Source: a virus. Taken from it: 42,465 nucleotides of DNA. The DNA lies in IMG/VR virus record IMGVR_UViG_3300028920_000015, positions 1 through 42,465 of that record, one strand, 5' to 3'. The translations under genes were made by a program, and so were the position numbers. Shown here piece by piece: positions 1,316 to 34,318 of this stretch (positions are counted from its first letter, which is position 1; every line of letters starts with the position of its first letter). The notes beneath the pieces are model-generated. The model was not told where the DNA came from, searched no databases, and saw only the letters and a program-made list of their open reading frames with translations.

Positions 1316-1370
1316 GACCTCGTCAGTTGACGCCTCACGTCAAGACCCCGCAACGTGCGGGGTTTCGGTC
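1316..1370 (-). ncRNA. Type II hammerhead ribozyme B (minimal)
   Basis: Read on the minus strand from 1370: GACC (stem II 3' strand), GAAA, stem III ACCCCGCA/UGCGGGGU (1345-1352 with 1356-1363, three-base loop), GUC at 1346-1344, stem I UUGACG/CGUCAA with a five-base loop (1327-1343), core CUGACGA (1326-1320), then GGUC (1319-1316), which pairs with GACC. It is a complete 55-nt type II hammerhead. Predicted cleavage is between 1344 and 1343. The first G of stem II is also the last base of the TAG stop codon of the upstream 40-residue gene. Confidence 0.93.
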
Positions 1371-5989: not shown

Positions 5990-6190
5990 ATAGCATTGGC
6001 GTTTGTAAAGAAAAAAAAGAAAAGTAACAAAAGAAAAAAAAGAAACACCTTGTATTAATACAAAAGACTGTAGTTGTTGTATTGTGGATAATGTGGATAA
6101 GTGGTATAAAACCTTATAAAATAAGCGGAAGTTATACACAATGCCTATGTGGATAACTTGTGGATAGATGTGGATAATGTGCATATGTGG
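5990..6190. other. Putative DnaA-dependent replication origin
   Basis: Six 9-mers match or nearly match the DnaA box (TTATCCACA on either strand): 6083-6091, 6092-6100, 6132-6140 (opposite orientation), 6148-6156, 6159-6167 and 6169-6177. The last three are spaced 10-11 bases apart, on the same helix face. An A-rich tract (about 6007-6052) adjoins and could be the unwinding element. The site lies between divergent early and late units, as origins often do. With the DnaC-like and initiator genes present, host DnaA recruitment is plausible. Confidence 0.8.
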
Positions 6191-6200
6191 TATTACCGTG

Positions 6201-14495: not shown

Positions 14496-15218
14496 ATGGT
14501 TGATAAAAACGAGGAAGGCAAAGATAAAGGCAAGAGCGCAGAGGACGTAAACAATGACGACAATAAGAACAATGACGGCGGAGAAGATGAAGGGGAAGAC
14601 ATACCTCTCGGCGAAGAGTTTTTCAGCAAGACTGACAAAATAAGCGGTAAAAAAGGCGCTTTGACATACGAGGAAACGCAGGCACTTATAGACGCCGAGA
14701 TAGAGAAAAGAGAGAAGGAAGCAAAAGGTGAAGGCGGAGACGACAAAGACAAGGAAGATAAAGATAAAAACGCTAGCCCAAATTCCGAAGGTGGTAAGGA
14801 CGACCCAAAAGGAAAGAAGTCAGAGCCTACACCTGAAGAACAGGCAGAGGCCAATAAAAAAGCCGAGGCGTTTGCGAGATACACTGACAAGGTATCTCAG
14901 ATTACTTCTCTTTACAAGGCTACAAAGGACGTTGACATTGACGATTCTGAGGTTATGGAGAGGACGCAGAAACTTGCAAAGGCAGGAGAAAAGATAGACC
15001 TCAAGACTGTCGACAAAATTTGTGCTGAAATTTACAAAGAGAAGAAGGAAGAAGCAATAGAAAAAGAAAAGAAATACAAGGAGTCAAAAGGCGGTGGCGC
15101 GCCTCTTTCCCGAGACCGTTCAGTAGTAGATGACGGGAGGGGAGGAAATGAAAAGCCTGTTAATATCAACGAGCAGGACGTGTTCGCTGATTTCAATAAC
15201 TTCAGAAACTCAAAATAA
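14496..15218 (+). CDS. Probable scaffolding protein (240 aa)
   Basis: ATG at 14496. Located directly before the major capsid gene. The sequence is highly charged and low in hydrophobics, with a disordered acidic N-terminal half and a helical C-terminal half (EEQAEANKKAEAFARYTDKV, KEKKEEAIEKEKKYKES), as in scaffold proteins that guide prohead assembly and leave before packaging. It ends with a short DVFADFNNFRNSK tail that could bind coat. No protease gene was seen. Confidence 0.75.
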   Translation: MVDKNEEGKDKGKSAEDVNNDDNKNNDGGEDEGEDIPLGEEFFSKTDKISGKKGALTYEETQALIDAEIEKREKEAKGEGGDDKDKEDKDKNASPNSEGGKDDPKGKKSEPTPEEQAEANKKAEAFARYTDKVSQITSLYKATKDVDIDDSEVMERTQKLAKAGEKIDLKTVDKICAEIYKEKKEEAIEKEKKYKESKGGGAPLSRDRSVVDDGRGGNEKPVNINEQDVFADFNNFRNSK

Positions 15219-29873: not shown

Positions 29874-30077
29874 TCACTCCTCCTTATGTTTTTTGTATCT
29901 CTTCTTCCAAAAGTGTCTGGCAAGAAGAAATACTGCTGCTCCCAATAGCAGATTGTTTACAAATAAATATTGGAGTACAATGGGAAACCAGTTGTCAACG
30001 TCTACCAGTAGACCGCAAAGCATATCAATTTTTTCAGATAGTTCGTAGATTGCCTCTGTTTCCAATTCATTTGTCAT
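29874..30077 (-). CDS. Small membrane protein (67 aa)
   Basis: ATG at 30077 after GGAGGGGGCA, overlapping the previous gene. An acidic N-terminal helix is followed by a membrane span (about residues 31-53, FPIVLQYLFVNNLLLGAAVF) and a very basic tail (KKRYKKHKEE), which predicts an N-out, C-in orientation. No family recognised. Confidence 0.7.
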   Translation of the reverse strand: MTNELETEAIYELSEKIDMLCGLLVDVDNWFPIVLQYLFVNNLLLGAAVFLLARHFWKKRYKKHKEE

Positions 30078-30888
30078 TGCCCCCTCCTGATTCCGCAAGT
30101 CCCTGCCTTTTTTTGACGAGATTCGTGATACTGTCTTTCCACTTGATCTTCGGCAGGTGCTTGGCCGTGTCATAGAATTCAAGACAAGCATACATTGATT
30201 GGAAGTTCTGCAGGCGTTTGATTTCGTCGGCATACTTGTCCTTGTCAATGATTCTTTGTGTCGGGTGATTGAGCCTTCCAAACCAAATATCGTTGCTTAT
30301 ATGGGGCAGGAGCGCGTCATAGAGCCTGCGTCCTGTCTCAGCATAGGATTCTGAGGTCGGAAGGAGTGGCTCGGCACTCACAGATGTATTGATTCCGTGC
30401 CTGTGAGCGTGTTCTAGGCACTCAATTCGCTCCCGAGGGGTAGACGCCCCGCGCTCCCAAAACTTCATAATCTCGGGGTCGAGAGAGCCTATTGAGAATC
30501 TAACCATTGACTGCTCTGGTGGGTATTCGAGTAGCACTTTGACGACATTTACAATGCACTCCATTTGAGGTTTACTGACAATGAGTATATTATTGCCAGC
30601 GTCGAGAATGCGCTTAATGAGGTAGAGGCTTGCGTCAAGATAATGTGGCGTGATATCGTGCTGAGTAGGGAACATAATTACGCCATTGATCTTCGGCTGT
30701 TCCTTTTCTAACCACGAATCGACAATGCTTTCTTCTGTCCACTTCTCAGGTGGCTTTGTCCTCCAACGGACACAGGCATTGAATCGAGCGTAGCAATAGA
30801 TACAGTCATTGCTGCAGCCCGATCCTATGTTGCGTCCTTGCTCGGCCCATTCCTTTGTTCCTCTTCCTTTGCGGTTATTGTTGAACAT
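30067..30888 (-). CDS. Radical-SAM protein of phage Gp37/Gp68 or photolyase-like type (273 aa)
   Basis: Binds a [4Fe-4S] cluster and S-adenosylmethionine. C25-x3-C29-x2-C32 (GSGCSNDCIYCYAR) is the radical-SAM cluster motif, followed by FPTQHDITPHYLD and a TIM-barrel-like strand-helix series with SIGSLDPEIMKFWERGAST, typical of the spore photoproduct lyase-related proteins found in phages (Gp37/Gp68-like). The exact reaction of the phage members is not known to me; DNA or nucleotide modification or repair is likely. Start at 30888 after GAGGTGAAGCA. Confidence 0.85.
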   Translation of the reverse strand: MFNNNRKGRGTKEWAEQGRNIGSGCSNDCIYCYARFNACVRWRTKPPEKWTEESIVDSWLEKEQPKINGVIMFPTQHDITPHYLDASLYLIKRILDAGNNILIVSKPQMECIVNVVKVLLEYPPEQSMVRFSIGSLDPEIMKFWERGASTPRERIECLEHAHRHGINTSVSAEPLLPTSESYAETGRRLYDALLPHISNDIWFGRLNHPTQRIIDKDKYADEIKRLQNFQSMYACLEFYDTAKHLPKIKWKDSITNLVKKRQGLAESGGGNDK

Positions 30889-32683: not shown

Positions 32684-34318
32684 TTACATTTGTGGCATTG
32701 CGAGTATTGTTGGTTTCTCTTCAGGTATGTTCGTGATGAACGCTTCCGTGGTGAGTAGCATTGAGGCGATTGAGGCTGCGTTCTGCAGGGCTGTCCTTGT
32801 TACTTTCACAGGGTCAATGATCCCCGCCTTGAACATATCCTTAACCTCTCCGTCGTTTGCGTCGTAGCCGAGAGTGTTGCTCATCTTTTCTTTAAGCAGG
32901 GCTTTCATTTCACCTGCGTCTCCGCCTGCATTTGTAACTACCTGCTCGAAAGGTTTTGATATTGCTTGCCTTACAATGTCTACGCCGACGTGTTCTTCTT
33001 TTGTGGCAAAAATATTTGTGTCGACGCAATGAATTGCTTTCAGCAGAGCAATGCCTCCGCCTGCTACAATGCCTTCTTCTACCGCACATTTCGTAGCATT
33101 GAGGGCGTCTTCAATTCTCATACGCTTCTCTCTCATCTCTGTTTCTGTCGTTGCTCCTGCGTGTATTACGGCAACGCCTCCTGTCAGTTTAGCAAGGCGC
33201 TCTTTCAATTTCTCTTTTCTGAAGTCATCTTCCTCTTCCTTCAGGAGTCCTCTGATTGCTTCAATGCGTTCAATGATTTTCTTCTTATCTCCCTTGCCGC
33301 CTATGATTGTTGTTTTGTCAGCCGACACTACTACCTTTTCGGCAATGCCGAGGTGAGTAATGTCTGCTTCCTTCAGGCCTGTTCCTGCAGCGCGCAATGT
33401 GATTCCGCGCTTGTCGTCAATGACTGTTCCGCCTGTAACAACAGCAATGTCCTCAAGAACTTCCTGTCTGATATCTGAGAATTCAGGAGACCTGACAGTA
33501 ACACAGGAGATATTGCCTTTGACTGCATTGACTATGAGGGTCTGTAGTGCGTCTCCGTCTACAGTGTCAGCAATCAGAACAAAAGGCTTGTTGCTTTCCT
33601 GTGTTATTTTGTTTATTATCGGCATTACTTCCTTCGGATTGGTGATTGTCTTGTCTGTTATTACAATGTAGGGGTTGTCCAGTTCCACTGTCATATTCGG
33701 ATTTGTAGAAAAATAAGGGGAATGATATCCCTTATCGAACTGTAGTCCTTCTACACAATTCAGAATGGTGTATTGTGTTTTGGACTCCTGCACGGTAACA
33801 ACTCCGTCCTTGCCTGTCTTTTCAATGGCTTCAGAGATGATGTCTCCTATCTCTCTGTCATTGTTGGCCGAGATAGAGGCGACCTGCTTGGTCATCTCAG
33901 CGTCATCTACTGGCTTTGCAATGGTTTTTAGATACGCGACGATTGAATCTACGGCTTTTTGTATGCCTCTCTTGATTGGCATAGGGTTTGCTCCCGCAGA
34001 GATTATCTTGCGTCCTTCATTGTATATTGCCTGAGCGAGAATGACAGCAGTTGTAGTCCCGTCTCCTGCAATGTCATTGGTTTTCCTTGCTGCTTCCTTT
34101 ATTAACTGAGCGCCAAGTCTTTCGAAGGGGTCTTCGAGCGTAACTTCCTGCGCAATGGTAACTCCGTCGTTGGTGATTGTCGGGTAGGGTAGGGCAGTCT
34201 CAAAGATTACATTGCGTCCCTTCGCTCCGAGTGTGAGTTTCACTGTGTTGGCGATCTTGTCAATGCCTGCCTGTATCTTCTTGTGGCCTTCTTCAGAGTT
34301 GAGTAGATTCTTATACAT
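32684..34318 (-). CDS. groEL: Phage-encoded GroEL chaperonin (544 aa)
   Basis: A full-length group I chaperonin. The ATP site is intact: TNDGVTIAQE, DIAGDGTTTAVILAQ and the catalytic Asp in IEDALNATKCAVEEG, with EGIVAGGGIALL following. Apical substrate-binding residues are largely kept (KGYHSPYF; DALQTLIVNAVKG). The Gly-Gly-Met tail of bacterial GroEL is missing; it ends TILAMPQM. It would fold phage proteins such as the coat in a closed chamber. Genes for two different GroES-like lids flank it, an arrangement I do not know from other phages. Start at ATG 34318 overlaps the upstream gene. Confidence 0.97.
   Translation of the reverse strand: MYKNLLNSEEGHKKIQAGIDKIANTVKLTLGAKGRNVIFETALPYPTITNDGVTIAQEVTLEDPFERLGAQLIKEAARKTNDIAGDGTTTAVILAQAIYNEGRKIISAGANPMPIKRGIQKAVDSIVAYLKTIAKPVDDAEMTKQVASISANNDREIGDIISEAIEKTGKDGVVTVQESKTQYTILNCVEGLQFDKGYHSPYFSTNPNMTVELDNPYIVITDKTITNPKEVMPIINKITQESNKPFVLIADTVDGDALQTLIVNAVKGNISCVTVRSPEFSDIRQEVLEDIAVVTGGTVIDDKRGITLRAAGTGLKEADITHLGIAEKVVVSADKTTIIGGKGDKKKIIERIEAIRGLLKEEEDDFRKEKLKERLAKLTGGVAVIHAGATTETEMREKRMRIEDALNATKCAVEEGIVAGGGIALLKAIHCVDTNIFATKEEHVGVDIVRQAISKPFEQVVTNAGGDAGEMKALLKEKMSNTLGYDANDGEVKDMFKAGIIDPVKVTRTALQNAASIASMLLTTEAFITNIPEEKPTILAMPQM

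Follow-up and report, generated by a model that had tools for sequence, protein, structure and literature searches.

In the window, by which we mean the whole stretch of 42,465 nucleotides that was analysed, two type II hammerhead ribozymes lie on the minus strand and bracket two ORFs of that strand. Upstream of ribozyme 1 (1315-1371, core 1316-1370) is a 40-aa ORF with a GTG start (1370-1492), for which a Pfam search returned no match and whose UAG stop (1372-1370) overlaps the ribozyme. Behind it come a leader (1295-1315) that reads AGACATTGAACGAAAGGAGGC and contains the Shine-Dalgarno (SD) sequence for the ATG at 1287, then the two bracketed ORFs: one of 58 aa (1111-1287; sequence and Pfam search) and one of 133 aa that encodes a DUF7222 (PF23864) protein (695-1096; Pfam, E 1.6e-22). 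Ribozyme 2 (596-692, core 597-691) is followed by a duplicate of the leader (576-596; AGACATTGAAGGAAAGGAGGC) and by a gene for a DUF7447 (PF24239) protein of 149 aa (40-489; Pfam, E 2.8e-16). Rfam scans of the whole window gave no further ribozyme class.

As read on the minus strand, ribozyme 1 is made of three perfect helices around a complete type II core. Stem II pairs GACC (1370-1367) with GGUC (1319-1316). The GAA of the core (1366-1364) leads into stem III (1345-1363), whose 8 bp (1363-1356 with 1352-1345) are closed by a CGU loop; after the GUC, with C17 at 1344, stem I (1327-1343) has 6 bp and a UGAGG loop, a seventh pair (U-G) being possible, and CUGACGA (1326-1320) completes the core. 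The functional unit takes in A1371 and A1315, the conserved A residues that flank stem II. The MFE fold of the 57-nt element is the three-way hammerhead (-25.3 kcal/mol); once the element is extended by six bases, to 63 nt, a CUGAC/GUCAG hairpin competes within about 0.3 kcal/mol. At the (3,5,5)-bp level, the type II core with its helices occurs twice in the window vs not once in 300 whole windows (42 kb each) randomised under a dinucleotide model. As sequence and structure, the hammerhead at minus 1370-1316 is confirmed. The type II assignment on the minus strand and the core elements proposed in an earlier note on this DNA hold, both on the sequence as read and on a score of 64.5 bits with the covariance model R1 described below. 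The A15.1-U16.1 and G10.1-C11.1 pairs that it listed are formed, and its cleavage position, between C1344 and U1343, is retained as a prediction. It had also placed the ribozyme exactly between a stop codon and the next ribosome-binding site. The ribosome-binding site does follow, but the last base of the upstream UAG is shared with stem II, if the GTG ORF is real. According to fold predictions, cleavage at this site would barely alter the accessibility of the SD (from 0.85 to 0.90).

The earlier note described a lone ribozyme, correctly located at 1370-1316, and overlooked the second complete copy, which a scan with a descriptor of the type II core and its helices revealed at minus 691-597. 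In ribozyme 2, stem II has 4 bp (GCCC/GGGC), stem III has 11 bp and a 37-nt loop, stem I has 6 bp (UUACGG/CCGUAA) and a UCAAG loop, and the core reads CUGAUGA. The MFE fold is again the hammerhead; cleavage is predicted between C625 and U624. The ribozyme begins 3 nt behind its upstream stop codon. The two copies have a common core, and stems I, II and III all differ between them via compensatory changes. Their 3' leader is also common, as AGACATTGAA or, in full, AGACATTGAA[C/G]GAAAGGAGGC. Behind ribozyme 2 no start codon lies near this leader, so its SD is of no obvious service to the directly following gene, and the next gene downstream has its own SD at about 500. The sequence at 576-596 may represent the remnant of a duplicated leader, or point to a lost small ORF.

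Both copies contain CUGANGA, GAA, the A15.1-U16.1 and G10.1-C11.1 pairs, a position 17 other than G (H17) and three helices. Both also have the type II topology, with stems I and III closed by loops and stem II open to the flanking RNA. Another reading takes the locus for a mere hairpin (a terminator or an mRNA-stabilising stem) or for an inactive hammerhead-like relic. Stem III with a T-rich stretch indeed scores terminator-like on the plus strand (1343-1365), but the genes around it run on the minus strand, where no T run is present; the GC-rich hairpin followed by a U run that defines an intrinsic terminator is absent from the gene strand. The core bases are all intact in both copies, the stems covary between the copies and conservation is position-specific in 228 relatives. 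We therefore consider that a hairpin or a relic has hardly any chance of being the right explanation.

A search with the Rfam type II model had been suggested as a check, a score under the family threshold counting against the ribozyme. At site 1, RF02276 gives 31.1 bits (E 1.2e-4 on 301 nt, 3.8e-6 in the record search), formally below its gathering cut-off of 37 bits, and at site 2 it gives 13.1 bits, also below. For site 1 this shortfall is no refutation because RF02276 models a stem II of 2 bp and a 3' tail of another kind: the Rfam model describes the pseudoknotted form, and its alignment to ribozyme 1 inserts two bases, which fits a 4-bp stem II. The comparison with R1, a covariance model made from 70 diverse viral and prophage copies without the window sequence, indicates that RF02276 is the wrong yardstick. 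R1 assigns 64.5 bits to ribozyme 1 with E 3.3e-15, and 39.6 bits to ribozyme 2 in a partial alignment (593-650) that makes no use of the true 5' half, which lies beyond the 37-nt loop. In 20 loci R1 found 58 convincing matches and only 3 of them reach the Rfam cut-off; annotation with RF02276 at this cut-off thus overlooks most such ribozymes in this test set. Among the 70 copies, 99.6% of the paired cells hold standard pairs, and in 13 of the 16 pairs both partners have changed; the three invariant ones (two on the core side of stem III, and G10.1-C11.1) were fixed by the query. The covariation score is 0.88, vs 0.19 for shuffled and at most 0.14 for slid alignments, and the share of paired cells likewise far exceeds that in both controls.

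The relatives were collected with a pattern derived from the two window copies, CGAAAC N8-38 GTC N6 TNANG N6 CTGANGAG. A first, looser pattern had been discarded: its matches were mostly due to chance, with paired copies in 4 of 120 loci. With a 6-bp stem I the pattern matches at least 120 stretches of IMG/VR, vs 6 with a 7-bp and 2 with a 5-bp stem I, and a stricter version matches 96 stretches among 84,980 prokaryote genomes, from many phyla. Paired hammerheads number 155 in 110 viral loci (among the matches listed) and 122 in 94 genome loci; in an earlier run of the hammerhead scan the shuffled control gave 1 in 2.24 Mb. Several features that the query did not set are conserved. Stem II has exactly 4 bp in 147 of the 155 viral copies among the matches listed, and 227 of the 228 unique copies have an A directly 5' of stem II (position -1), vs a background of 26% A. 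On its 3' side stem II is directly followed by an A in 104 of 135 viral copies (again among the matches listed), and of the 138 viral copies that were inspected first, 129 have a G-C pair closing the loop of stem I. The conservation of the UNANG loop is not independent evidence because the motif is part of the search pattern; loop variants with one extra base were nevertheless found, though not asked for. The qualifier "minimal" used in the earlier note does not suit ribozyme 1: its periphery is conserved too, with the UNANG loop, a stem II of 4 bp and an A at each open end, and these features correspond to the loop 1/loop 2 contact known from fast natural hammerheads. Pairing between loop I and the 3' tail, as in a pseudoknot, is no better in the variant copies than in a shuffled control. 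In the window, 3 loop/tail pairs are possible at site 1 and 4 at site 2 with G-U included, i.e. below or at the about 4 bp that would count as a pseudoknot, and we do not class either copy as pseudoknotted. The variant is accordingly defined by a 6-bp stem I whose 5-nt loop reads UNANG, an open 4-bp stem II, an A at -1 and the lack of a pseudoknot, and both window copies fit this definition. Judged from these sequences, it is widespread and sharply defined, and mostly unrecognised by the Rfam model.

Type III hammerheads of the sTRSV and CChMVd kind also have a 6-bp stem I and a 4-bp stem II. The likeness extends to the bases for the tertiary contact, a U on the 5' side of loop 1 and an A on the 3' side of loop 2 (PMC3185496). 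In contrast, stem II is open here, two flanking bases stand for "loop 2" and there is no role in rolling-circle replication. The prophage and phage type II hammerheads of Perreault et al. 2011 (PMC3088659; RF02276) are closer: they have the same core, the same permutation with stem II open, a clustering at gene borders in phage DNA and a proposed function in transcript processing. In the published consensus, loop I forms a pseudoknot with the 3' tail and stem II often has 2 bp, whereas the window variant has a 4-bp stem II, no pseudoknot and an Rfam score below the cut-off. Type-SGC permuted hammerheads (PMC10085705) and the pseudoknot hammerhead (PMC11300833) have the same core in variant topologies, their core strands being connected differently from those of the window ribozymes. 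By their sequence features, then, the window ribozymes are built, and would work, like a type II hammerhead, of a kind known as such since 2011, yet they score below the cut-off of the curated Rfam family and lack the pseudoknot that characterises it.

The position relative to genes is strongly constrained. In 76% of 226 copies an open frame ends at a stop codon no more than 6 nt from where the ribozyme begins, vs 15% for antisense and 8% for random positions, and an ATG with an SD lies at most 60 nt downstream in 63% of them, vs 2% and 10% respectively. The commonest offset (47 of 226), to which site 1 belongs, is a stop codon that shares one base with stem II. These positions would suit a cleavage gated by translation: a ribosome terminating at the overlapping UAG would cover stem II and the GAAA, so that the RNA would fold and cut only when the upstream ORF is unread, as a regulatory switch and not as constitutive punctuation. 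But tight packing at gene borders accounts for these positions as well, and site 2 begins 3 nt past its stop; we hold this gating to be rather improbable. Multiple copies (from 2 to 11) are present in 20 of 50 viral records, and within every record they occupy one strand only. In four bacterial genomes, 3.7 to 9.1 Mb in size, the model search gives 1 to 3 copies apiece, all of them on a single contig of the genome concerned.

Some arrays deserve mention in their own right. One record (G001:2572-7562) has eleven copies within 5 kb, on one strand and at short intervals. Phycicoccus jejuensis and Streptomyces iakyrus (strain NRRL ISP-5482) carry the same array of three ribozymes with identical spacing (1209 nt between two of the copies), which suggests a mobile element recently shared by two actinobacterial genera. 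Many Gastranaerophilales MAGs (nine loci) have two copies about 360 nt apart, apparently belonging to a common prophage family.

Our preferred reading, which we consider probable, is that the two window ribozymes are cis-acting self-cleaving type II hammerheads that split a polycistronic phage mRNA at gene borders into end-capped units. The minus-strand transcript would be cut at 1344/1343 and at 625/624, and a middle unit of 719 nt carrying the 58-aa and DUF7222 ORFs would be released. At each site the upstream product would end with stem III and a 2',3'-cyclic phosphate, and the downstream product would begin with a 5'-OH and stem I, directly before the ribosome-binding site. Since stem II is open and the cut falls between two closed hairpins, both products would keep a terminal hairpin. 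From this topology we infer that the hairpins could protect the ends; the end-capping argument is our own deduction, and the passages of PMC3088659 and of other literature used here do not state it. The UNANG loop of stem I may dock on the open end of the 4-bp stem II, with its U contacting the A at -1. Such docking would reproduce the loop 1/loop 2 contact of types I and III with neither a loop 2 nor a pseudoknot. In natural hammerheads the known tertiary contact joins a 5' pyrimidine of loop 1 with a 3' purine of loop 2 (PMC3185496); by analogy, the U of the UNANG loop would take the first of these positions and the A at -1 the second, in a loop 2 that has been cut open, and the contact presumably forms here as well. 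Regarding activity, PMC3088659 reports in vitro cleavage by clustered type II hammerheads of the phage kind and cleavage in E. coli by a triple from A. tumefaciens, and the splitting of messages by hammerhead arrays was already proposed there in 2011. What hammerheads do in bacteria and phages is still called an open question (PMC6155905).

The 719-nt segment bracketed by two copies, with ends that would be 5'-OH and 2',3'-cyclic phosphate, could also be understood differently: the two ribozymes would excise an RNA, and ligation, whether by the ribozyme itself or by a ligase, would turn it into a circular or spliced message. A hybrid stem II formed between neighbouring copies elsewhere is fully pairable in 60 of 72 cases. 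This compatibility is explained by recent duplication: 54 of these neighbours are identical, and the hybrid stem would be compatible in only 6 of the remaining 18, near the random expectation of about 37%. In the window itself the hybrid stem II has a C-U mismatch and 3 of 4 pairs. Perreault et al. sought circular or spliced products and report none (PMC3088659). Circularisation here is unlikely, and we grant this reading very little weight.

It is conceivable, and we propose it tentatively, that a geometry-locked type II subclass, hitherto not separated and largely invisible to Rfam, punctuates the operons of very diverse phages at stop codons, the open-stem-II topology having been selected since each cut gives both fragments a terminal hairpin. 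The variant is set apart from the published consensus; the UNANG/4-bp form may already be listed in the supplement of PMC3088659, where tertiary contacts are sorted by type. With a variant that has a simple pattern, several copies per genome, a strict placement at stop codons and predicted product ends, the idea of processing and protection becomes directly testable.

No close relatives of the virus were found via a 700-aa virion-region protein, the terminase, the GroEL-like protein or the shared tail; the single match to this tail is a chance match inside a coding region. DUF7222 and DUF7447 were beside ribozymes in none of 50 records of other viruses, in a search run without a positive control, and the DUF7447 region of Streptomyces phage Navo showed no ribozyme. 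Bacteroides phage BS-TP1, considered as a cultured-phage anchor, was rejected: its weak R1 match (14934-14981) is without stem I and is not a hammerhead.

Elsewhere in the window, a second repeated intergenic element, the hairpin CCGCCAACGACAAAAGGCGG, is present on the minus strand at 539-562, 1714-1737 and 1497-1520, in the leaders of neighbouring small genes; two copies are near-identical and one has decayed into an SD. Several TTATCCACA repeats, DnaA-box-like by eye, lie at 6080-6200 beside a perfect TTGACA-18-TATAAT on the plus strand, and this region upstream of the terminase gene is a candidate replication origin. The virus also encodes a GroEL-like chaperonin (32684-34318), with at most 49% identity to any phage record, and a radical SAM protein (30067-30888) that matches spore photoproduct lyase weakly, with a score under the cut-off.
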